From assembly GCF_003056055.1 (NCBI RefSeq), contig NZ_PYFP01000002.1:124001-188000 (forward strand): a stretch of DNA of 64,000 nucleotides. The letters are read 5' to 3'. The translations under genes were made by a program, and so were the position numbers. The stretch is from Glaciimonas sp. PCH181. Lineage in GTDB: Bacteria > Pseudomonadota > Gammaproteobacteria > Burkholderiales > Burkholderiaceae_D. The notes below the pieces were generated by a model, which saw nothing but the letters and a program-made list of their open reading frames with translations, was not told the DNA's origin and searched no databases. Positions 24,967 to 36,844 of this stretch are shown here, piece by piece (the stretch's first letter is position 1; the number at the start of each line of letters is the position of its first letter).

Positions 24967-26328
24967 ATGTCCAAAACCTTACTCATCAAGAACGCCCGCG
25001 TGTTGGTCACCATGGATGACCAACGTCGTGAAATCAGTAATGGTGCAGTGTTCATCCGCGACAACGTCATCGAACAAGTCGGCAACAGCGCCGATTTGCC
25101 GGGCACAGCCGATGAAGTCATCGATGCCAGCAATCATGTCGTGATCCCCGGTCTGGTGAATACCCATCACCACATGTATCAAAGTCTGACCCGCGTGATT
25201 CCTGCGGCACAAAATGGTGAGCTATTTAACTGGCTAACCAATCTGTACCCGATCTGGGCCAATTTGACGCCGGAAATGATACAAGTCTCCACGCTGACGG
25301 CGATGGCAGAATTGATCCTGTCGGGCTGCACCACCAGCAGCGACCATTTATATATTTATCCGAACGGCTGCAAGCTCGACGACAGCATCGAAGCCGCTAG
25401 CAATATCGGCATGCGCTTCCATGCAGCACGCGGTGCGATGAGCGTCGGCCAATCCAAGGGCGGTCTGCCACCAGATAGCGTTGTCGAAGAGGAAGCCGCG
25501 ATCCTCAAAGATACCCAGCGCCTGATTGAGACCTATCACGACGCACAACGTCACGCCATGCAGCGCATCGTCGTCGCGCCCTGCTCGCCATTTTCTGTAT
25601 CGCGCGATCTGATGCGCGAATCAGCCGTGCTAGCCCGCCATCATGGCGTCTCCCTGCATACGCATCTGGCCGAAAACGTCAACGATATCGCCTACAGTCG
25701 TGAAAAATTTAACATGACGCCAGCCGAATATGCCGAAGATTGCGGCTGGGTCGGGCACGATGTCTGGCACGCGCATTGCGTCCAGCTTGATGACGATGGC
25801 ATTTATATGTTTGGCCGCACCGGCACCGGGATTGCGCATTGCCCATGCTCCAACATGCGGCTGGCATCCGGGATTGCACCTATCCGCAAAATGATCGACG
25901 CCGGCGTCACTGTCGGCTTAGGCGTTGACGGTTCAGCCTCGAATGACGGCGCGCACATGCTCGGCGAAACACGGCAAGCCATGCTGCTGCAACGGGTCGG
26001 TTTTGGACCAGATGCCATGACCGCACGCCAAGCATTGGAAATTGCGACACTGGGCGGCGCTAAAGTCTTGAATCGGGATGATATCGGCGCACTCAAACCC
26101 GGCATGTCAGCCGATCTGGTGATGTTTAATCTGAATCAGGTGCGCTTTGCCGGTGCATGGCACGATCCGGTCGCAGCACTGGTATTCTGCACGCCGTCTG
26201 ATGTTGCCTATAGCATCATTAATGGTCGGATTGTGGTACGCGAAGGTCAATTGACGACGATCGATTTAGGTAATGTGCTCGAAAGACACAATACATTAGC
26301 TAGGGAATTAGCAGAAGCTGCGCGCTAA
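24967..26328 (+). CDS. 8-oxoguanine deaminase (amidohydrolase)
   Basis: Zinc amidohydrolase of 453 residues closely resembling the Pseudomonas 8-oxoguanine deaminase, which converts 8-oxoguanine to urate. Metal ligands appear in NTHHHMYQ (about 66-69), HTHLAE (about 230), HAHCVQ and GLGVDGSASNDG (Asp about 319). The SGCTTSSDHLYIYP and GGLPPDSVVEEE segments are typical of this subgroup rather than of guanine deaminase or cytosine deaminase. In this cluster it would supply urate for PuuD from oxidised guanine. Guanine deaminase activity is the main alternative. A terminator follows, separating it from the Wadjet operon. Confidence 0.87.
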   Translation: MSKTLLIKNARVLVTMDDQRREISNGAVFIRDNVIEQVGNSADLPGTADEVIDASNHVVIPGLVNTHHHMYQSLTRVIPAAQNGELFNWLTNLYPIWANLTPEMIQVSTLTAMAELILSGCTTSSDHLYIYPNGCKLDDSIEAASNIGMRFHAARGAMSVGQSKGGLPPDSVVEEEAAILKDTQRLIETYHDAQRHAMQRIVVAPCSPFSVSRDLMRESAVLARHHGVSLHTHLAENVNDIAYSREKFNMTPAEYAEDCGWVGHDVWHAHCVQLDDDGIYMFGRTGTGIAHCPCSNMRLASGIAPIRKMIDAGVTVGLGVDGSASNDGAHMLGETRQAMLLQRVGFGPDAMTARQALEIATLGGAKVLNRDDIGALKPGMSADLVMFNLNQVRFAGAWHDPVAALVFCTPSDVAYSIINGRIVVREGQLTTIDLGNVLERHNTLARELAEAAR

Positions 26329-26337
26329 ATTTCTGCG

Positions 26338-26373
26338 GTGAGCCAAGGCGGTTATCGCTTTGCCTCACTTTTT
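26338..26373 (+). terminator. terminator after 8-oxoguanine deaminase
   Basis: Stem of GTGAG plus CAAGGC with their partners GCTTTG (one G-T pair) and CTCAC, one C-C mismatch between the two parts, followed by TTTTT. It ends the purine operon 80 bp before jetA. Confidence 0.7.
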
Positions 26374-26452
26374 ATTGCTAAATTTGCACCACTTCACCCT
26401 TTCATACTCTCACCACTCAAACGACAATTGCGCCTTCTAAGGCAGTAAAAAT

Positions 26453-27958
26453 TTGCCCATCAAAAGGGCGAAAGCTATATATTCTTGTTTTCGCAATTTT
26501 CCGCAGGCACCACTCTTGTTTTTTGAATCAGATCGACTCAATTTTTTCAGACCCATCGCAGGCAAGCACCGTACAGTCGTCGTCGCCTGTTTGCGTACCT
26601 TGTACGAGCGCCTGCACGGCCCCAGCGCCGACTACGGCCAAAACCTGACGCGCGACAGCTTGCGCGATCTTTTATTGCCGGTGGTACAAGATGCGCGACA
26701 TTTATTGGCACAAGCCCGGCAAGACGAAGCCGATAGCGAGGACGAGTCCACGTTACCAAGTCTGATTCCCGACAATGCCGACGATCAGCAAAGCACCAGC
26801 GCGGTCGTGCGCGCCCTGCATAGCGATGGCTGGCTGGAAACCTTCGGCGACCGTGCTGGCCTTGTAACGGCTTACCGTTTTTCCCGCGCTGGCAAACTAT
26901 TTGCCGAGGCCTTCTGGGCACTTGACCGCCGTAGCGCCCGTACCCGCCAACGCAATGTCCGCAGTTGCCGGAACGCGCTGAATGCCGCTTTGCGCAACAT
27001 CGACGCCTATGATTTAGTCGATGCTTACGAATATGCAGAAAAAATCATCAGCGATATCTCAGAAGGCGTGGATTACTTTCAGGAGCTGGTACGCCGATTG
27101 ATGCTGGAAGCATCGCAAACGCCGTGGGATAACTTCATGGAATTCCTTGATCGTTTTGAAAAGGAATTCAAAAAGCAACTTACGGCTGACAGCATCGAAC
27201 GCCATCGTCAGGCGATTCGGGATGTGATTGCACAATTGCATAGTCTGGATGACGCAAAATCCCGCGCTTTAGAGGCGCAGCTCAACGATATCGCACGCTG
27301 GGCGATGCAAGAACGGGTTGGCGCATCGACGGTCGACTGGATGCTGGAACGTATCGAAGAAATGGTCGAAGCTGCCTGCACCACCAAACATCCTGAGCTG
27401 ATCAAAGCCATGAGCGTGTACATGCAACGCGCCGCCAGCATCGTCCAGCAAGCGCTGATGTTGCGTGGCGGCCAAACCCGTCAGGCCTACACCGCCGCCA
27501 TCGCCAAAACTGCCAGTTTGAGTGGTGATGCACAAAACGCCTTGTTAGCGCGCATCGGTCAGACGCTGGCGCCAGCTGAAATACGGCTGCTTGATCCGGC
27601 AACCTTCAAGTTGCGGACCATCTCACAACGTCGTAAAGCCCTGACCGTCACAGCGCAGCCAAAAGTATCACGCGATGCGCGTCTGGCAGCAGCGCTATAT
27701 CGTGCCGAAGCAGATGCTTTTGCGTTATCGAACGACGACGTCGTGCAACGTATCCGCGCCGAATTGCGCCTGCGTGACCGCCCGATCCGCCTGTCATCGC
27801 TGCCAACAGCCACCACCACCGATGTCCTCAACAATATGCAAATGGTAGAAGCTATACGCGGCGCGCGTGATCCGTCGCTGAAGATCACCAAGTTGCCGAA
27901 TAAATTGTGGAACGACTTTTACGCCGGTGATGACTATCAAATAGAAATGAAAAAATGA
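26453..27958 (+). CDS. jetA: Wadjet protein JetA (kleisin-like subunit)
   Basis: First gene of a Wadjet anti-plasmid system. JetA plays the kleisin role (compare MukF) in the JetABC condensin-like complex. The 501-residue product has the LFFESDRLNFFRPIAGKHR opening typical of JetA, an N-terminal winged-helix region and a mostly helical body. An in-frame stop lies five codons upstream and no ATG occurs in this frame until about residue 220, so the start must be a non-ATG codon: TTG at 26453 (given here) or TTG at 26516, which would begin MFFESDRLNFF. Weak AGG-type ribosome binding sites precede both. Its stop overlaps the jetB ATG by four bases. Confidence 0.88.
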   Translation: MPIKRAKAIYSCFRNFPQAPLLFFESDRLNFFRPIAGKHRTVVVACLRTLYERLHGPSADYGQNLTRDSLRDLLLPVVQDARHLLAQARQDEADSEDESTLPSLIPDNADDQQSTSAVVRALHSDGWLETFGDRAGLVTAYRFSRAGKLFAEAFWALDRRSARTRQRNVRSCRNALNAALRNIDAYDLVDAYEYAEKIISDISEGVDYFQELVRRLMLEASQTPWDNFMEFLDRFEKEFKKQLTADSIERHRQAIRDVIAQLHSLDDAKSRALEAQLNDIARWAMQERVGASTVDWMLERIEEMVEAACTTKHPELIKAMSVYMQRAASIVQQALMLRGGQTRQAYTAAIAKTASLSGDAQNALLARIGQTLAPAEIRLLDPATFKLRTISQRRKALTVTAQPKVSRDARLAAALYRAEADAFALSNDDVVQRIRAELRLRDRPIRLSSLPTATTTDVLNNMQMVEAIRGARDPSLKITKLPNKLWNDFYAGDDYQIEMKK

Positions 27959-28752
27959 ACCTGCACGAAGCCTTAGAAGCGCAATTGCGCTTGCACAATA
28001 CGCCACCGGAACGCTTCCGCGATATCGTCGGTCGTCTGTTTTCCGTTGGCATCGTCGTCCGCGAAGAAGATAACGTCGAACAACGTCTTTACGATGACGC
28101 ACGGCGTATCGAAACCTGTTTGCGCGAATACTTCCAGCTCGGCGGATTTCGTCTGGAGCACAATGTAAAAAGCGAATTCTTTCGTCTATATGCACCGGGG
28201 GCAGACGTGCCGGGTCTGCAAGACGATGGCATGGAACCAGTGCCGGGCCTGCGTGCGCGCTTGTCGCCAGACTTCGTTGCCGCAGCCCTCACCTTACGTT
28301 TTCAGTATCAACAAGGATTGTCGGAAGGCGGCAATCGCCTGACCGATGCGGGCGAAGTATTGATCCGCTTTGAAGAATTATCAGCGACCTTACAAACTCA
28401 GTTAAAGCGCGCATTACCGGCAAATTCGGTAGAGCGGCAACGCCTGTTAAGCGACCTAAAGCGTCACCGATTGATACGCGTCGCCGCCACTTTCAGCATG
28501 GATGACGAAGATGCATTGCTGGCAATTCGTCCGACGATATTAGGCATCATTAGCGACGATATGCTGGAAGCCGCGCTAGACGCCGAGCAACCGTTGATGC
28601 CGCAAACTGCAACGGAAGATGCAGATGCAGAATATATAGAAAATGCAGAAAATATCGACGATGTAGCTGATGTAACTGATGTAACTGAAGCTGAGCAAAT
28701 ACTCGAGCAAACAGCAGCGCAAGCCATCATCACCGAAGAACAACAAGGATAG
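27955..28752 (+). CDS. jetB: Wadjet protein JetB (DUF4194, kite-like subunit)
   Basis: Dimeric kite subunit (compare MukE) of the JetABC complex, 265 residues. The DUF4194 core runs to about residue 205, with RFRDIVGRLFSVGIVVRE and LREYFQLGGFRLEHN recognisable and LSPDFVAAALTLRFQYQQG in the middle. The last 55 residues are a very acidic tail built of repeats (ENAENIDDVADVTDVTEAEQ), also visible in the DNA as repeated GATGTAACT. ATGA overlap with jetA shows translational coupling, and jetC starts five bases after the stop. The tail is longer and more acidic than I would expect for the family. Confidence 0.92.
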   Translation: MNLHEALEAQLRLHNTPPERFRDIVGRLFSVGIVVREEDNVEQRLYDDARRIETCLREYFQLGGFRLEHNVKSEFFRLYAPGADVPGLQDDGMEPVPGLRARLSPDFVAAALTLRFQYQQGLSEGGNRLTDAGEVLIRFEELSATLQTQLKRALPANSVERQRLLSDLKRHRLIRVAATFSMDDEDALLAIRPTILGIISDDMLEAALDAEQPLMPQTATEDADAEYIENAENIDDVADVTDVTEAEQILEQTAAQAIITEEQQG

Positions 28753-28757
28753 TCTGA

Positions 28758-31700
28758 ATGAAGCTGGAAAAATTAATCCTGGTGAACTGGGGCGCGTTGA
28801 CCACGCAAGAATATCCAATGGGCAACATGACGCTGCTGACCGGCCCCACCGGTTCTGGCAAATCGACCATGCTGGATGCGCTGCAAACGGTGATGACAGC
28901 GGTCTATCAAAACATTTTTAGCTACAATCCGGGGCAGGACGAAAGCAGCCAAAGCACCCGTAACGGCAAGACTAAACGTACCCTCGCCTCTTACATTGTC
29001 GGTGCCGAAGACAACTTATATGCACGCCCTAGCGCGCATGGTTATATCGCCGCCGTATTCCAGCCTAGCGAAGGCGAAGAAGGCAAAACTTTTACCGCGC
29101 TGGTCGCTGCTGCTGCCCGCGTTGACGGCACAGGCGAACGTCGCAATGCGGTCACCGAACGCATGGTATTACTCATCATTGACGATGTCGCGCTGCGTCT
29201 GGATGATCTGACTTCACGTGAATTGGATGGCGGTATGCACGTCGTCGCCGTCGAAAAAATCGAACATCATCTAGCCGCCAGATATCGCAACGTGATCAAC
29301 TTCCGTGACAGCAAACGCGAATATCTATGCCAACTTTACGGCCGCTTTCGTGGGCAAAAATCGGTCTCGTTCAACGAAGCTGAAAGCGCTGCCAAAGCGT
29401 GGAGTCAATCGATTGCACACAGGCCAATCGGCAGTGTGAACGATCTGGTCAAACATCAAATTCTGGAGCTAGATACATCCGACTTAAACAAGCGGATTGG
29501 CGACATCAGCAAGTTGATGCGCGATGTTAACGCCTTACGCAAAGAAGGCGAACGCCTGACAGATAACGTCAAACGCCTCGATACGCTGGCAAAGACGGTC
29601 AGTGCAACGGCCCGTGCGCATGAGTTGGCAACCCAGTCGCAACTGTTGGTATCTTCGCTCGCACTGCGCGACGATCAGCGTCAGCTAGACGTCGCGATGA
29701 ATGTGATAAAAAACGTCACGAGCCTGATCGCAGAAGAAAGTATCGCCGCCGACCGACTAGAGGATGATAGCAATGCCAAAGGCCGCAGCCTGACGCAAAT
29801 ACATGCCCAAATGATGGGGATACCGGCCGCCGATCAAAAGAAGCGTCTGCTCAACGATATTAGCGACTGCAACAGCAAAATCAGGACCATCTTTAACAAT
29901 TTGCATGGCAACGCGCTGGCAGCACAACAACTGGAAAATGCCGCACGCAATGTCGCTGGCATGCAACTGCCCGCCGAACAGACCGACATCGTCCGCGCCG
30001 CACGGCAAGTTGTATTAGCGTTATCCGCTGTCGACGCACTCGATATCGGAGAGCAGCTGGAAAGTATTCATTCGCTGGCACAGATGGAAGAAGTTGACGT
30101 ACTAAAAGCCTTATTGCTGGTACGTGATTTTGCTGGTGTCGATGTCGCATTACGTACGTTGCACGCCACGCTGGCTGGTACCGAAAATAGTTTCGTCGCT
30201 GCGTTGCATACCCAAATCGCTCACCTTGGCGAAAGCCAAACGCATGCGCAGCGGCACGAAAAAGACGCCGCTTCCCGCAAGGCCAATCTAGCCGAAGGCG
30301 GCGCAGACTATCCGCATCATATTCGCCACGCACTGAAAGAATTTCGCGCCGAACTAGGTGCAGCGCGGGTGCAGGTATTGTGCGATCTGATTGAGCCGAT
30401 GTCCGCCGAATGGCAACCGGCAATTGAAGGCTATCTGGGCGGTGCACGCTACAATCTGGTCGTCGATCAGGATTGGGAAACCAGAGCCATCAATTTTGTC
30501 CGTGACCGCAAACTACGTGCGCACGTTATTCAAGGCAGCTTCTGCCTAAAGCATCTAAAAACAGAACGCACGCCTACGGATTCGATCGTGCATGAACTCA
30601 GCGCAGAACATCCCGTCGCGCACGCATTTTTGCACGAACAATTCGGTCAGGTAGTCAAAGTCAACGATACCGAGACCTTGCGCGATACGCCACGTGGCCT
30701 GACTAAGGATGGTAAAGGCAGCGGCTCCCGCACCATGTTCACCATCGACATGGCCGCAACGCTGGTTTTCGGTCAGGAAGCCAAGCGACTTGCCAAGCAA
30801 CGCGCTGAACTGGAACACGCAGACGCCGAACGGGAATTGACGCAAATCCGCACGCAACTACGCGACTTCCAAGGCGCGCTGGCCTTGATGGGCAAACTAC
30901 AATGTCCATCGTTTGTCGCTATCGGCGATCTGGAACGTTCAGTGCGCGACATCGATGCGGCGCGTCAGGATTTAAGCCGACTTGATTTAAGTCAGGTCAG
31001 CAAACTCGAAGATGAAGCCGAAGCGTTAAACATCGAAATTAAAGCGCTCAATGACCGTAAAGTTGCTTGCAACAAAACCATCGGCGGTTACGAAAATACA
31101 CTAAAAAGTCAACAAAACCTTGTCACGAACGTGACCGCCGGAATGGCCGCCAAGCAAGCCAAAGTGGACATCGACACTGCCAAATTACGCGATCTGTGCC
31201 TGATCAACGCCAGCTTGTCGCTGACGGCAATAACCGATGAAATCAGTACCTGGATCGACGAGAAAAAATATTCGGCGGCGCAAGGATCAAAACAAGTCGA
31301 GCAACAAAAATTACGTAGCTGGCAAGTCTACGGTGATGTCCGCAATGCCTTGGGCGAATATCATACCCACGCACGTATCGATGAACGCTTTGAAATAACC
31401 CACACCGACGACGCCCGAGATGGCGATTTTTCGCCGACGTATCCATTGATGGTCTCGCTGCAATCCAGTGTGCGCAAACAGTTGATGCGCCAGCAAGATA
31501 TCGGTCTGATCAAAAATCTCTCGCAATTACGCACCGCCGAATCGTCTTTCAACGACGTTTTCACCAAGCAGTTCTGCTACGAAATCCGCAACGCCGTCGA
31601 TACCGGCGTACGCACGTTGCGCACACTGAATATCGAACTCGATAAGCTCAAATTTGGCACAGACAAATTTCGCATCGACTGGTCCGAATGGATACCGGAA

Positions 31701-32378
31701 TTCAAAGCTTATTACGACTTCTTTTGCGCTACATCTGAAATGTCGGAAATACACGATTCCAGCGACTTATTCGGCACCACCGACCTAAGCCCGGAAAACT
31801 GTATCGTGCGTGACCGCCTGGTGCAATTACTGCTATCGGACGATGAAGATCGCGCCGTCAAAGAATTGCAACGCGTAGCCGACTATCGCAATTATCGTCG
31901 TTACGAAATCTATAAAGAATCAGATACCGGCGCGCAGGTCCGCCTATCAGAATGGGGCACCGGCTCTGGCGGTCAGCTAGAAACACCGGCTTATATCATT
32001 CACGCAGCCGTTGTCACCAACCGCCTGAAACGCTTTGAAAAAGGCGCAAGTCTGCGCCTGCTGGTCAACGACGAATCGTTCGCGAAAATGGATGAAGGAC
32101 GCGCACGCGACGTACTAAAATTCCTGCGCGATCATCTTGGCATGCAGTTAATCTGCGCAATGCCAACAAAACACGCTGGTGCAATCAAGCCAGAATTTTC
32201 ACGCGAATGGAGCTTTAGCCGCACCGAAGCGGAAGGCAATGGGGAAGTCGGTTTTGTGTCCGAAGCCGATGAACGCGAACTGCGCTCCGACAAATTGCGT
32301 GAACTGTGGGAATTGCGTCGTACGCAAGTACGCGAGCAAGCGCAAATCACATTTGAGGCGGCGGAGCGTATCGCTTGA
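28758..32378 (+). CDS. jetC: Wadjet protein JetC (SMC-like ATPase)
   Basis: SMC/MukB-like motor of the Wadjet complex, which in studied systems extrudes DNA loops and recognises small circular DNA. The protein has 1206 residues. Walker A is GPTGSGKST at 29-37; the ABC signature is in GTGSGGQ (SGGQ at 1070-1073); Walker B is LRLLVNDES with Asp1105 and Glu1106. Two coiled-coil regions (about 230-510 and 660-960) flank a hinge-like segment near 525-620 that includes the EGYLGGARYNLVV stretch. All ATPase motifs look intact. Its TGA overlaps the jetD start codon. Confidence 0.95.
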   Translation: MKLEKLILVNWGALTTQEYPMGNMTLLTGPTGSGKSTMLDALQTVMTAVYQNIFSYNPGQDESSQSTRNGKTKRTLASYIVGAEDNLYARPSAHGYIAAVFQPSEGEEGKTFTALVAAAARVDGTGERRNAVTERMVLLIIDDVALRLDDLTSRELDGGMHVVAVEKIEHHLAARYRNVINFRDSKREYLCQLYGRFRGQKSVSFNEAESAAKAWSQSIAHRPIGSVNDLVKHQILELDTSDLNKRIGDISKLMRDVNALRKEGERLTDNVKRLDTLAKTVSATARAHELATQSQLLVSSLALRDDQRQLDVAMNVIKNVTSLIAEESIAADRLEDDSNAKGRSLTQIHAQMMGIPAADQKKRLLNDISDCNSKIRTIFNNLHGNALAAQQLENAARNVAGMQLPAEQTDIVRAARQVVLALSAVDALDIGEQLESIHSLAQMEEVDVLKALLLVRDFAGVDVALRTLHATLAGTENSFVAALHTQIAHLGESQTHAQRHEKDAASRKANLAEGGADYPHHIRHALKEFRAELGAARVQVLCDLIEPMSAEWQPAIEGYLGGARYNLVVDQDWETRAINFVRDRKLRAHVIQGSFCLKHLKTERTPTDSIVHELSAEHPVAHAFLHEQFGQVVKVNDTETLRDTPRGLTKDGKGSGSRTMFTIDMAATLVFGQEAKRLAKQRAELEHADAERELTQIRTQLRDFQGALALMGKLQCPSFVAIGDLERSVRDIDAARQDLSRLDLSQVSKLEDEAEALNIEIKALNDRKVACNKTIGGYENTLKSQQNLVTNVTAGMAAKQAKVDIDTAKLRDLCLINASLSLTAITDEISTWIDEKKYSAAQGSKQVEQQKLRSWQVYGDVRNALGEYHTHARIDERFEITHTDDARDGDFSPTYPLMVSLQSSVRKQLMRQQDIGLIKNLSQLRTAESSFNDVFTKQFCYEIRNAVDTGVRTLRTLNIELDKLKFGTDKFRIDWSEWIPEFKAYYDFFCATSEMSEIHDSSDLFGTTDLSPENCIVRDRLVQLLLSDDEDRAVKELQRVADYRNYRRYEIYKESDTGAQVRLSEWGTGSGGQLETPAYIIHAAVVTNRLKRFEKGASLRLLVNDESFAKMDEGRARDVLKFLRDHLGMQLICAMPTKHAGAIKPEFSREWSFSRTEAEGNGEVGFVSEADERELRSDKLRELWELRRTQVREQAQITFEAAERIA

Positions 32379-33508
32379 GTGCGCCACTTTGGCTAGAAAA
32401 ACCCGCTATGCAAGCCTTGCTGCATAAGTTGGTAAATCGTCTGGACGACGAAGTGCTGAAGGGAAAGCCGTCAACACACGCCTTTAAATTGGATAGTAAA
32501 AGTTGGCCGACTTTCTTCGCTGCAGAGTTTGAGACCGAAAGAGAAATCCTTTGGTCACATCTTGCCTGGCTGGCGCAGCAAGGTTGGTTTGAGATCAAAC
32601 TAACGAAGTCAACCTCGCCTGAAGCCGATTATGAACGCAAGCCCCGCTTGCTAAATCTTCATATCGAACGATTGCGCGAGGCGACGGGACGACTTGAAAG
32701 AATCGTCAGCGCTACTGAACTATGGCGCGAAGCGGTGCGTAACAAACTCCATGCATCAGATGATATCAAGCAGCAGGTCGCACGTTCTTTGATCGAAATT
32801 TCCGATCGATCAGCGGACGAAATCGTGGAACGGCTAAACATGTTGCCAGCGTTAGCAAACGCCCCTTTACTTCTCAGACAGGTTTCAGCAGAACTATTCT
32901 GGACCAAATCGAAGATATTAGATAAGCGACAAGAACTGGTCGCTATTATTCTGGGATTGGAAGAATGTCCATTTCCATTAATGCCCGTGCAGTTACAGGT
33001 ATTCTTGCCAAAGCAAGGCTATGACAGTGTGCTGTTTATAGAAAACCAAACCACTTTTGAGCAAGCAATCAGAGAAGCTGACGGACGATTTTCTGGATTA
33101 GCGATCATCTTTGCGGCAGGATTCAAAGGCAGCGCGAAGCGCTTACGGTTACGTTCCGGCAGCTCCTTGTATTTTTCGGTAGAAGGTGATTTATCATCCG
33201 CAGCAACGGGGAAATTTGCTGCTTGGTTATACAAAGATGGCGGCGATAACAACTTGTCGAGTTGGTTCTGGGGTGATTTGGATTATGCGGGGATGGGGAT
33301 TTTGCAAACGTTAAAAAACTCATTTATCGCCCTGGAAGCATGGCAACCGGGCTACGCGCCAATGCTTGAAGCACTTCGAAATGGGGGTGGTCATTCACCA
33401 GAAAACATACAAAAGAAAGTCGAGCGCACCGGATGCCAATACGCAGACAATATTCTGATACCGGCCTTACATACAATCTCAAAATTCGTAGATCAGGAAA
33501 TTGCCTGA
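32375..33508 (+). CDS. jetD: Wadjet protein JetD (Toprim nuclease)
   Basis: Topoisomerase VI-like nuclease subunit (DUF3322 plus DUF2220) that cleaves the plasmid once the JetABC motor has identified it. The protein has 377 residues. The Toprim domain is intact: Glu223 in VLFIENQTTF and the DxD pair Asp301/Asp303 in FWGDLDYAGMG. The N-terminal part (WLEKPAMQALLHKLVNRL) is the DNA-binding DUF3322 region. The start is TTG at 32375, overlapping the jetC stop, with GGAG 8-12 bases before it; the first ATG is 11 codons later and lacks a ribosome binding site. Its base use looks more AT-rich by eye than that of the neighbours. Confidence 0.93.
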   Translation: MSAPLWLEKPAMQALLHKLVNRLDDEVLKGKPSTHAFKLDSKSWPTFFAAEFETEREILWSHLAWLAQQGWFEIKLTKSTSPEADYERKPRLLNLHIERLREATGRLERIVSATELWREAVRNKLHASDDIKQQVARSLIEISDRSADEIVERLNMLPALANAPLLLRQVSAELFWTKSKILDKRQELVAIILGLEECPFPLMPVQLQVFLPKQGYDSVLFIENQTTFEQAIREADGRFSGLAIIFAAGFKGSAKRLRLRSGSSLYFSVEGDLSSAATGKFAAWLYKDGGDNNLSSWFWGDLDYAGMGILQTLKNSFIALEAWQPGYAPMLEALRNGGGHSPENIQKKVERTGCQYADNILIPALHTISKFVDQEIA

Positions 33509-33514
33509 TCTACG
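33487..33514 (+). terminator. hairpin spanning the jetD stop codon
   Basis: An 11-bp perfect stem CGTAGATCAGG/CCTGATCTACG with a 6-base loop. The right arm contains the jetD TGA (33506-33508), and CAAGTTTGTTTT follows. It probably ends the Wadjet transcript. Confidence 0.6.
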
Positions 33515-33634
33515 CAAGTTTGTTTTACTTCCGACATCGGCCTCGCCCCGCAAAGAAAGATCAATCAACTTAGACTGCTAAATCCATCAATGCAAGTCAT
33601 AGCGTTCCTATGTCGGCCTGCTTCAATCCTACCT

Positions 33635-35056
33635 TTATTGCGGCCAGATTTCTGCTAATCGCAACAGATTAGTACTACCCGGTTCACCAAACGGCATGCC
33701 AGCGGTGATCGCAATTTGATCGCCGATTTCTGCGAAGCCTTCCTTGAATGCGGTTTCACACGCGGCTTTTACCATCTCGCTTTCGTTATGTACCTGATCG
33801 CTGATCGTTGAATGGACGCCCCATACCATCGCCAGTCGCCGGGCGGTTGCCAACTTCGGCGTGATGCTGACGATCGGTGCAATCGGACGTTCACGCGCTG
33901 CACGTAAACTAGTATGTCCAGAGCTTGTATAAGTCACCGTAGCTTTTGCCCCGACAATACGGGTGACATCACGCAGCGCTGAACAAATTGCATCGCCACG
34001 ATTCGGCAATGGCGTTTGATGTTGCGCATCCAGCATGTTGCGGTAAAGCGGATCTTGCTCCACCTCAGCAATGATGCGACTCATCATTTCTACCGCCTCG
34101 ACCGGATACGCACCGCTAGCCGATTCAGCCGACAACATCACCGCATCCGAACCGTCATAAATGGCACTGGCAACATCCGATGCCTCAGCCCGAGTTGGAA
34201 CAGGCATAGTGATCATCGATTCCAGCATCTGCGTGGCGATAACAATCGGTTTTCCATGCTGACGACACACCCGCAAAATACGTTTTTGCACACCCGGCAC
34301 ACGCTCCGGCGGCAGCTCCACACCCAGATCGCCACGCGCTACCATGATCGCATCAGACGCTTGAACAATCGCATCAAGCTGATCCAGCGCAGCCGGTTTT
34401 TCCAGCTTGGACAAAACCCAGGCGCGGTCGCCAATCAATGCCTTAGCCTCCAGCACATCCTCCGGCCGCTGCACAAACGACAATGCAACCCAATCCACAC
34501 CCAACTCAAGCGCAAACGCCAGATCACGTTTATCTTTCTCAGTCAAAGCAGGAATCGGCAACACCGCATCCGGCACGTTAACCCCCTTGCGATCCGACAG
34601 CACACCGCCATTCACCACCCGCGTACGAATCCGCTGCCCATCGCTATCCTGCACCTGCAATCGCAACTTCCCATCATCCAACAGCAAAGACTGTCCCGCA
34701 GTGATGACCGCAAACAACTCAGGATGCGGCAAACAAACCCGCTGGGTATTACCCAGACTAGTATCGCGATCAAGCACAAATTCCTGCCCGGCATGCAGCG
34801 TTACTTTACCCTCAGCAAACTGCCCGATCCGCAATTTAGGTCCTTGCAAGTCAGCCAAAATCGCAATAGGCCGCCCAACCAAACGTTCAATTTCACGCAC
34901 AATCCGATGACGTTCCTGATGGTCCGCATGACTACCATGACTAAAATTAAATCGAAATACATCAGCACCAGCTTCAAATAAAGTCTGAATCATTTCCTGA
35001 CTAGAACTGGTTGGACCGAGCGTAGCTACAATTTTTGCGTTACGTTGACGTCGCAT
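33635..35056 (-). CDS. pyk: pyruvate kinase
   Basis: Converts phosphoenolpyruvate and ADP to pyruvate and ATP. The protein has 473 residues, normal for a bacterial tetramer. The N-terminus MRRQRNAKIVATLGP is diagnostic; the substrate loop FNFSHGSHADH, the GDLGVELP motif, the active-site SKLEKP segment and MLSAESASGAYP are all present, followed by the C-terminal effector domain. It comes last in the gcl-hyi-glxR-glycerate kinase series on the same strand, but 507 bp with a repeat copy separate it from the kinase, so it probably has its own promoter. It completes the route from glyoxylate to pyruvate, together with enolase encoded elsewhere. Confidence 0.96.
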   Translation of the reverse strand: MRRQRNAKIVATLGPTSSSQEMIQTLFEAGADVFRFNFSHGSHADHQERHRIVREIERLVGRPIAILADLQGPKLRIGQFAEGKVTLHAGQEFVLDRDTSLGNTQRVCLPHPELFAVITAGQSLLLDDGKLRLQVQDSDGQRIRTRVVNGGVLSDRKGVNVPDAVLPIPALTEKDKRDLAFALELGVDWVALSFVQRPEDVLEAKALIGDRAWVLSKLEKPAALDQLDAIVQASDAIMVARGDLGVELPPERVPGVQKRILRVCRQHGKPIVIATQMLESMITMPVPTRAEASDVASAIYDGSDAVMLSAESASGAYPVEAVEMMSRIIAEVEQDPLYRNMLDAQHQTPLPNRGDAICSALRDVTRIVGAKATVTYTSSGHTSLRAARERPIAPIVSITPKLATARRLAMVWGVHSTISDQVHNESEMVKAACETAFKEGFAEIGDQIAITAGMPFGEPGSTNLLRLAEIWPQ

Positions 35057-35563: not shown

Positions 35564-36844
35564 CTACAAAATCACCATAGCCCGAAAATCATTAACATTA
35601 GTCCGAGTAGGCCCACTAACCACCAAATCCCCCAACGCATCAAAAAACCCATACCCATCATTGTTATCCAACATCACCTTAGGCAACAAACCCAATTCCC
35701 CCGCCCGCCGTATAGAATCCGGCTGATAAATCGCCCCGGCATTATCCTCAGACCCATCAATCCCATCAGTATCGCAAGCCAGCGCATAAATCTCAGGATA
35801 CCCATCCAGCGCGGCAGCAAGGCTAAGCAAAAACTCCGCATTCCGCCCACCACGTCCATTGCCACGCACAGTAACCGTAGTTTCTCCTCCAGAAATCACC
35901 ACGCATGGTTTGCTAAACGGCTGCCCCCGGCGCGCAATCTGACGCGCCAGAGCAGCATGTGCCAAGCCGATATCCCGTGCCTCACCTTCCATTTCATCGG
36001 ACAAAATGTACGGTGTCAGCCCAGCTGCTGTCGCCGTAGCAGCCGCAGCGTCCAACGCATCTTGCGCAGTCGCAATTACAAAATGTTGATTACGTGCCAG
36101 CCGGGGATCGCCGGGTTTTGCGCTCTCACCTGCACCTGTTTCCAGATGCTGCAAGACTGCTTCTGGAATGGTTATTTTGTATTTTTTCAGGACGGCTAGC
36201 GCGTCGGCGCAGGTCGTTGGGTCGGCTAGCGTGGGGCCGCTGGCAATGATGCCGGGATCATCACCCGGGATGTCCGAGATCATTAGGGTGACAACGCGTG
36301 CAGGCGCGCACGCCAATGCTAATCGACCGCCTTTGATCGCGGATAAATGTTTGCGGACGCAGTTCATTTCGAAAATGTTTGCACCGCTTTTTAGCAGGGC
36401 TTTGTTGATGGCTTGTTTTTGTTCTAGCGTCAGGCCTGGGGCTGGCAAGGCTAGCAATGCGGAGCCGCCGCCTGAGATCAGGCACAAAACCAGATCGTCT
36501 TCGGTTAGTCCTTGCACCATTTCCAGAATGCGGGAGGCGGCTTGGCGGCCTGCTTCGTCCGGGACTGGGTGGGAGGCTTCGACTACTTCTATGCGCTTGC
36601 AATCTGCGCCGTGGCCGTAGCGGGTTACGACTAATCCGGTTATGTCGCCTTGCCAGTGGTCTTCTACTGTTTTGGCCATGGCGGCGGCGCCTTTGCCTGC
36701 ACCTATTACCAGGGTTCTTCCTTTGGTCGGCGGGGTGATTTTTGCTAGGAAGGGGGGAAGGCATTTTTCGGCGCTGACTGCGGTTACAGCGCTTTGGTAC
36801 ATTTTTAGAAGGAGATCGCGGGGGGTGAATGGTGGGGTGGACAT
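35564..36844 (-). CDS. glycerate 2-kinase, MOFRL family
   Basis: Phosphorylates D-glycerate to 2-phosphoglycerate, feeding lower glycolysis. The protein has 426 residues from the ATG at 36844; the frame is open upstream to 36955, but that stretch runs into the repeat and is not family-like. The N-terminal domain has LVIGAGKGAAAMA and LISGGGSALLALP, and the C-terminal MOFRL domain has GGETTVTVRGNGRGGRNAEFLL and the DTDGIDGSEDNAGA stretch. Older annotations call this family TtuD and hydroxypyruvate reductase. It follows glxR on the same strand and is flanked on both sides by copies of one repeat in opposite orientation. Confidence 0.93.
   Translation of the reverse strand: MSTPPFTPRDLLLKMYQSAVTAVSAEKCLPPFLAKITPPTKGRTLVIGAGKGAAAMAKTVEDHWQGDITGLVVTRYGHGADCKRIEVVEASHPVPDEAGRQAASRILEMVQGLTEDDLVLCLISGGGSALLALPAPGLTLEQKQAINKALLKSGANIFEMNCVRKHLSAIKGGRLALACAPARVVTLMISDIPGDDPGIIASGPTLADPTTCADALAVLKKYKITIPEAVLQHLETGAGESAKPGDPRLARNQHFVIATAQDALDAAAATATAAGLTPYILSDEMEGEARDIGLAHAALARQIARRGQPFSKPCVVISGGETTVTVRGNGRGGRNAEFLLSLAAALDGYPEIYALACDTDGIDGSEDNAGAIYQPDSIRRAGELGLLPKVMLDNNDGYGFFDALGDLVVSGPTRTNVNDFRAMVIL

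Follow-up and report, generated by a model that had tools for sequence, protein, structure and literature searches.

Do the four consecutive genes at positions 26,453 to 33,508 of the window, as we call the whole stretch of 64,000 nucleotides from Glaciimonas sp. PCH181 analysed here, form a complete Wadjet (jetABCD) anti-plasmid operon, and if so, of which type and origin? Profile searches, comparison with relatives and structure prediction lead us, with high confidence, to a complete type I Wadjet operon, probably a horizontally acquired four-gene cassette, which is located in a variable slot between a deaminase gene and the pyruvate kinase gene (pyk) and would act by loop extrusion and cutting of DNA.

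The four genes lie in the frames and on the strand given by an earlier note on this DNA (Table 1), with the spacing described there: a 4-bp overlap between jetA and jetB, a 5-bp gap between jetB and jetC and a 4-bp overlap between jetC and jetD. Together the open frames have 2,328 codons and no internal stop. The note had proposed JetA and JetD as the first and fourth products, and both were matched in a hidden Markov model (HMM) search of the PADLOC models: JetA1 PDLC00462 (E 5e-221, 732 bits; profile positions 2-472 aligned to residues 23-501 of the longer jetA frame) and JetD1 PDLC00527 (E 1.3e-116, 388 bits). The second and third products matched JetB1 PDLC00470 (E 1.6e-90, 300 bits, covering residues 1-223) and JetC1 PDLC00507 (E 0, 1630 bits). 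The top matches of JetA, JetC and JetD are near full length, and no difference from these four models was found, so this branch is already present in the defence database. The system type, which the note had left open, is type I as judged from these profiles: among the matches listed (for JetC the best 25 of 29), the only Jet model not of type I is one JetD3, with 25.5 bits where JetD1 scores 388. In the Pfam search, JetA matched PF18982 (JetA, 36.6 bits, cut-off 26.2), JetB matched DUF4194 (PF13835) and JetC matched SbcC_Walker_B (PF13558) and AAA_29; the JetD match to JetD_C (PF09983) is weak and confined to a stretch of 29 residues, and no N-terminal JetD model was matched in the Pfam search of this protein. 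NCBIfam gave zero matches for any of the four proteins. The order A-B-C-D is kept in 15 of 20 relative loci; among the other five, three end at a contig edge (L002, L011, L014), one has no recognisable JetA (L020) and one has JetC and JetD as fragments only (L019).

Table 1. Features of the jetABCD region (positions in the window)
Feature	Position	Strand	Description
Terminator-like hairpin between deaminase gene and jetA	26344..26362	+	after deaminase stop at 26328
jetA	26516..27958	+	kleisin-like subunit, 480 amino acids (aa) from TTG 26516; earlier frame 26453-27958
jetB	27955..28752	+	KITE-like subunit (DUF4194), 265 aa, acidic C-terminal tail
jetC	28758..32378	+	SMC-like ATPase, 1206 aa, Walker A, signature and Walker B
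jetD	32375..33508	+	Toprim nuclease, 377 aa, TTG start; E223, D301, D303, D373-Q374-E375
Terminator-like hairpin overlapping jetD stop	33487..33514	+	11 pairs, loop of 6, T-rich tail

One correction concerns the start of jetA, placed by the earlier note at 26453. In 15 of 15 JetA relatives examined there is a start codon at the position equivalent to TTG 26516, just ahead of a FFE.ER.NFFRP-like motif. In addition, 11 of the 15 have an in-frame stop at most 25 codons upstream of this position and therefore cannot use a start like 26453. From this comparison, TTG 26516 is most likely the true start of jetA. The AlphaFold2 model of JetA is of low confidence (predicted local distance difference test, pLDDT, 66), and its nearest structures are MukF and the Wadjet-II JetA.

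The motifs expected of the ATPase and the nuclease, which the note had reported as intact, are also conserved across relatives. JetC has Walker A GPTGSGKST at residue 29, the signature GTGSGGQ at 1067 and Walker B LLVNDE at 1101, and residues G32, K35, G1067-Q1073, D1105 and E1106 are identical in 18 aligned JetC sequences, including that of the window. In JetD, all 20 aligned sequences, again with the window's included, share E223, D301 and D303, as well as D373-Q374-E375 near the end of the protein. The predicted JetD fold (AlphaFold2, pLDDT 91) has as its best Foldseek matches 8b7f (MksG) and 7til (PA14 JetD), followed by topoisomerase VI A. The Wadjet identity is thus supported by four PADLOC type I matches and by a predicted nuclease fold nearest to MksG and JetD.

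The type I Wadjets of E. coli GF4-3 and P. aeruginosa PA14 share with the present operon the gene order, subunit families, SMC motifs and Toprim acids, and the JetD folds appear alike by prediction. Several features differ: JetC has 1206 aa here versus 1096 (8as8) and 1119 (8dk2) residues in the solved chains (whose source strains are in part our assumption), JetB lacks the string IFDR, JetD ends in DQE, and JetA, JetB and JetD have diverged too far to be matched by profile to the solved chains. Only the JetC family profile reaches solved Wadjet chains (8dk2, E 6e-10; 8as8, E 7e-7), so that, by sequence comparison, the operon belongs to a divergent type I branch. MksG of the Corynebacterium glutamicum MksBEFG system (8b7f) has 14% identity with JetD over the structural alignment. 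The work on MksG describes its proposed tyrosine Y258 as unconserved in JetD, and suggests that two conserved glutamates, E349 and E351, may be catalytic in MksG and JetD (PMC10123090); we infer that the DQE tail may correspond to this pair. JetB, with 265 aa, is longer than its 16 aligned relatives (215-237 aa), and the surplus is an acidic tail. This C-terminal tail (28621-28752) contains the short repeats DVADVTDVTEAEQ, and none was seen in the 16 relatives. In the literature looked at, which was consulted in part, we found no experimental work on this type I branch, and such work may exist elsewhere. Apart from adding a well-formed example of a branch with no solved structure close in sequence, the locus would be a routine annotation.

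How might such an operon act? In the accepted model, a JetABC dimer of dimers extrudes loops on circles below ~50-100 kb until it collides with itself, and JetD cuts (PMC10586767). The gene set and order, family membership, motifs, catalytic-residue conservation and predicted JetD fold are established for this operon, and by analogy with studied Wadjets it would also share dimerisation, extrusion, size sensing, cleavage and plasmid restriction. Two JetC dimers, linked by the kleisin JetA and the KITE subunit JetB, would load on DNA, and JetABC would extrude loops using ATP. On a small circle both motors would exhaust the DNA and meet; the stalled state would open or position a JetD dimer, whose Toprim acids would bind metal and cut the circle, and large or linear DNA would escape. 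The intact frames and catalytic residues suggest a functional operon, and an anti-plasmid role is very likely from its likeness to systems of this kind. If this holds, small plasmids would be poorly kept in this host. A Wadjet of Clostridium cellulovorans is reported to hinder plasmid transfer (PMC12287153). The plasmid records with a JetD relative (seven of seven) have at least 292,938 bp and are from Variovorax and Cupriavidus only; in four of the seven the relative is already labelled as Wadjet JetD protein. The assembly has contigs of 2.85 Mb, 1.67 Mb, 0.52 Mb, 0.28 Mb, 6.0 kb and 2.6 kb; the small contig that was read (6.0 kb) carries 23S and 5S rRNA and is not a plasmid, the larger contigs not having been examined for plasmid genes. 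The large plasmid records and the finding that the small contig read is not a plasmid fit the size-sensing model, although loosely.

Several observations weigh against a working Wadjet of the studied kind. A phmmer search of the solved chains found no relative for any of the four Jet proteins; the JetD and JetB family profiles gave nothing up to E 1 against the same chains, and the JetA profile gave three chance-level matches to non-Wadjet chains at E 0.39 or worse. For the best Foldseek matches of JetD the TM-scores are low (0.35 and 0.29) and the root-mean-square deviations high (10.8 and 17.0), which indicates that the placement of its domains differs from that in solved MksG and JetD. Variovorax and Cupriavidus are carriers of megaplasmids, which weakens the point on plasmid size. 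A scan of the sequence upstream of jetA, which covers one promoter type, gave no sigma-70-like promoter. The JetD tail, DQE, is unlike the glutamate pair described for MksG and JetD. In the type I Wadjet studied in PA14, JetB is reported to touch JetD through an N-terminal IFDR motif (PMC10586767); this motif is a reported contact and is not known as type-defining, and the string occurs in none of 17 JetB sequences in a search run without a positive control. Since IFDR is absent from JetB and JetD ends in DQE, the coupling between extrusion and cutting may differ here. Finally, deletion of a type III Wadjet in C. necator H16 left electroporation and plasmid stability unchanged (PMC12645576).

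These points raise the question of whether the operon, intact by sequence, could be silent or inactive in its host, through lack of expression or a decayed interface, and give no plasmid protection. Besides the result of the promoter scan and the natural Wadjet without a deletion phenotype, the TTG starts of jetA and jetD, the unusual JetB tail and the decayed appearance of some relatives (L019, L020, L082) would agree with this. The promoter result is limited to one promoter type, however, and the 2,328 stop-free codons retain all catalytic residues at ~48-69% identity to 11 closer relatives, a pattern unlike long neutral drift. We therefore consider a silent operon very unlikely and retain an intact Wadjet as the better reading.

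Concerning origin, the operon is sporadic in the genus: jetC is present in one of five genomes, this one. Of 294 genomes of the family searched, five have a JetD match: PCH181 itself, G180 and G134 with strong matches (49% identity) and two others with weak ones. More widely, Jet relatives occur in records labelled as alpha-, beta- and gammaproteobacterial, the alphaproteobacterial case being one metagenome bin. In a midpoint-rooted JetC tree of 20 sequences, the window's protein groups with 10 proteins from beta-, gamma- and alphaproteobacterial records (support 0.98), and both strong copies from the same family fall outside this group, which makes horizontal transfer likely; jetABCD was thus probably acquired horizontally, as far as the tree indicates. 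Base composition is uninformative as a sign of recent transfer, the G+C content of third codon positions (GC3) being 0.47-0.60 in the jet genes and 0.49-0.66 in 11 other window genes measured; jetD (0.467) is the sole jet gene slightly under the range of the others. Carriage by phages or viruses was considered and dropped, with no match among 50,697 phage records and no confirmed relative in viral contigs. A fifth conserved gene was also rejected: in a clustering of frames of at least 90 aa from 19 relative loci and the window, several of these loci ending at contig edges, only JetA-D recur in at least three loci. Some relatives are incomplete. The Deefgea chitinilytica locus L020 (1-5700) has no JetA relative upstream of jetBCD; in the family genome G180 (L082:6283-7110) the JetA frame has just 275 aa, with the first ~217 residues missing; and L019 (9670-10375) has JetC and JetD present as fragments only. 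These cases are possibly decay of relatives.

The chromosomal slot was compared in the sister species. Two of the four (G002 and G003) show the deaminase and pyk flanks together; the G004 stretch examined and the G001 contig both end before the deaminase gene. A DUF1185 (Pfam AA_synth) gene is next to pyk in four of four siblings (two of the four show one in-frame stop in the search, yet open frames of 201 aa are listed there). DUF1185 has no match anywhere in the PCH181 genome, and jetABCD occupies its expected place (26328-33640). Otherwise the content between deaminase and pyk varies: G003 carries DUF1185 together with an oxidoreductase cluster on the pyk strand, and in G004 DUF1185 adjoins pyk and is followed by genes which, by eye, resemble a type VI secretion spike with cargo. 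This G004 region (L042:6508-15600) comprises a VgrG-type-like spike protein with cargo, two similar proteins of 374 aa (by eye) and then the oxidoreductase cluster. In G002 the slot has DUF1185 and, on the deaminase strand, a three-gene SMC operon (L044, 6485-11362; 451, 239 and 939 aa). It has no PADLOC match for JetA or JetB and weak matches for JetC (best 78 bits); the SMC alone was identified by HMM. We take this trio to be MksFEB-like from its layout and from the lengths of the P. aeruginosa MksFEB proteins. It shares with jetABCD the slot and the layout of kleisin-, KITE- and SMC-sized genes, and differs in having no nuclease gene and an SMC of 939 aa.

This coincidence suggests another explanation, in which jetABCD would be a chromosome-organising, MksBEF-like condensin with a retained nuclease gene, replacing an MksFEB-like complex mostly lost in the genus. 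The G002-type SMC was matched in 168 of 294 family genomes (E <= 0.001, at least one, G006, only at 6e-4), but in just one of the five of the genus and not in PCH181, and in the sole sibling with this SMC it lies between the two genes that flank jetABCD here. On the other hand, three of the five genus members have neither SMC at the same threshold, so the data do not call for a replacement; in G180, JetD and the MksB-like SMC are both strongly matched, though the JetA frame of this genome is short; and JetD is intact and conserved, as expected for a defence system. In six other genera, all 10 loci examined have the MksFEB-like SMC with its two partners, and none has a relative of the deaminase, DUF1185 or pyk (E <= 1e-10) within its 20-kb stretch, so the slot is probably not the ancestral home of the MksFEB-like operon. 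It is curious that sister species carry two different SMC operons in one slot, but the content of this slot varies in general, and chance would suffice. A condensin replacement is accordingly the least probable of the readings considered, and the type I Wadjet remains preferred. Very improbable too, if slightly less so, is a bolder version in which the divergent branch, with its DQE tail, its longer JetC and no IFDR, couples extrusion to cutting via a different interface and also shares in chromosome folding, defence and housekeeping SMCs swapping at one slot. With one Wadjet, one MksFEB-like operon at the same slot and three genomes with neither, the genus offers a natural comparison for the interchangeability of such complexes.

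The borders of the cassette were also examined. The note had taken hairpins at both ends as its limits. The one at the jetD end is present and is the longest G+C-containing stem in the scan, whereas the upstream one, located after the deaminase stop, is probably the terminator of the deaminase gene. The region has 15 terminator-like sites, which is not above shuffled sequences (mean 11.5, standard deviation 3.6). As for border repeats, the notable features are one imperfect inverted repeat of 12 nt within 26462-26500 and the terminator after jetD. Further downstream, at 36190-36276, ARAGORN reported a tRNA with no readable anticodon, antisense to a glycerate-kinase-like gene, which is probably a false call.
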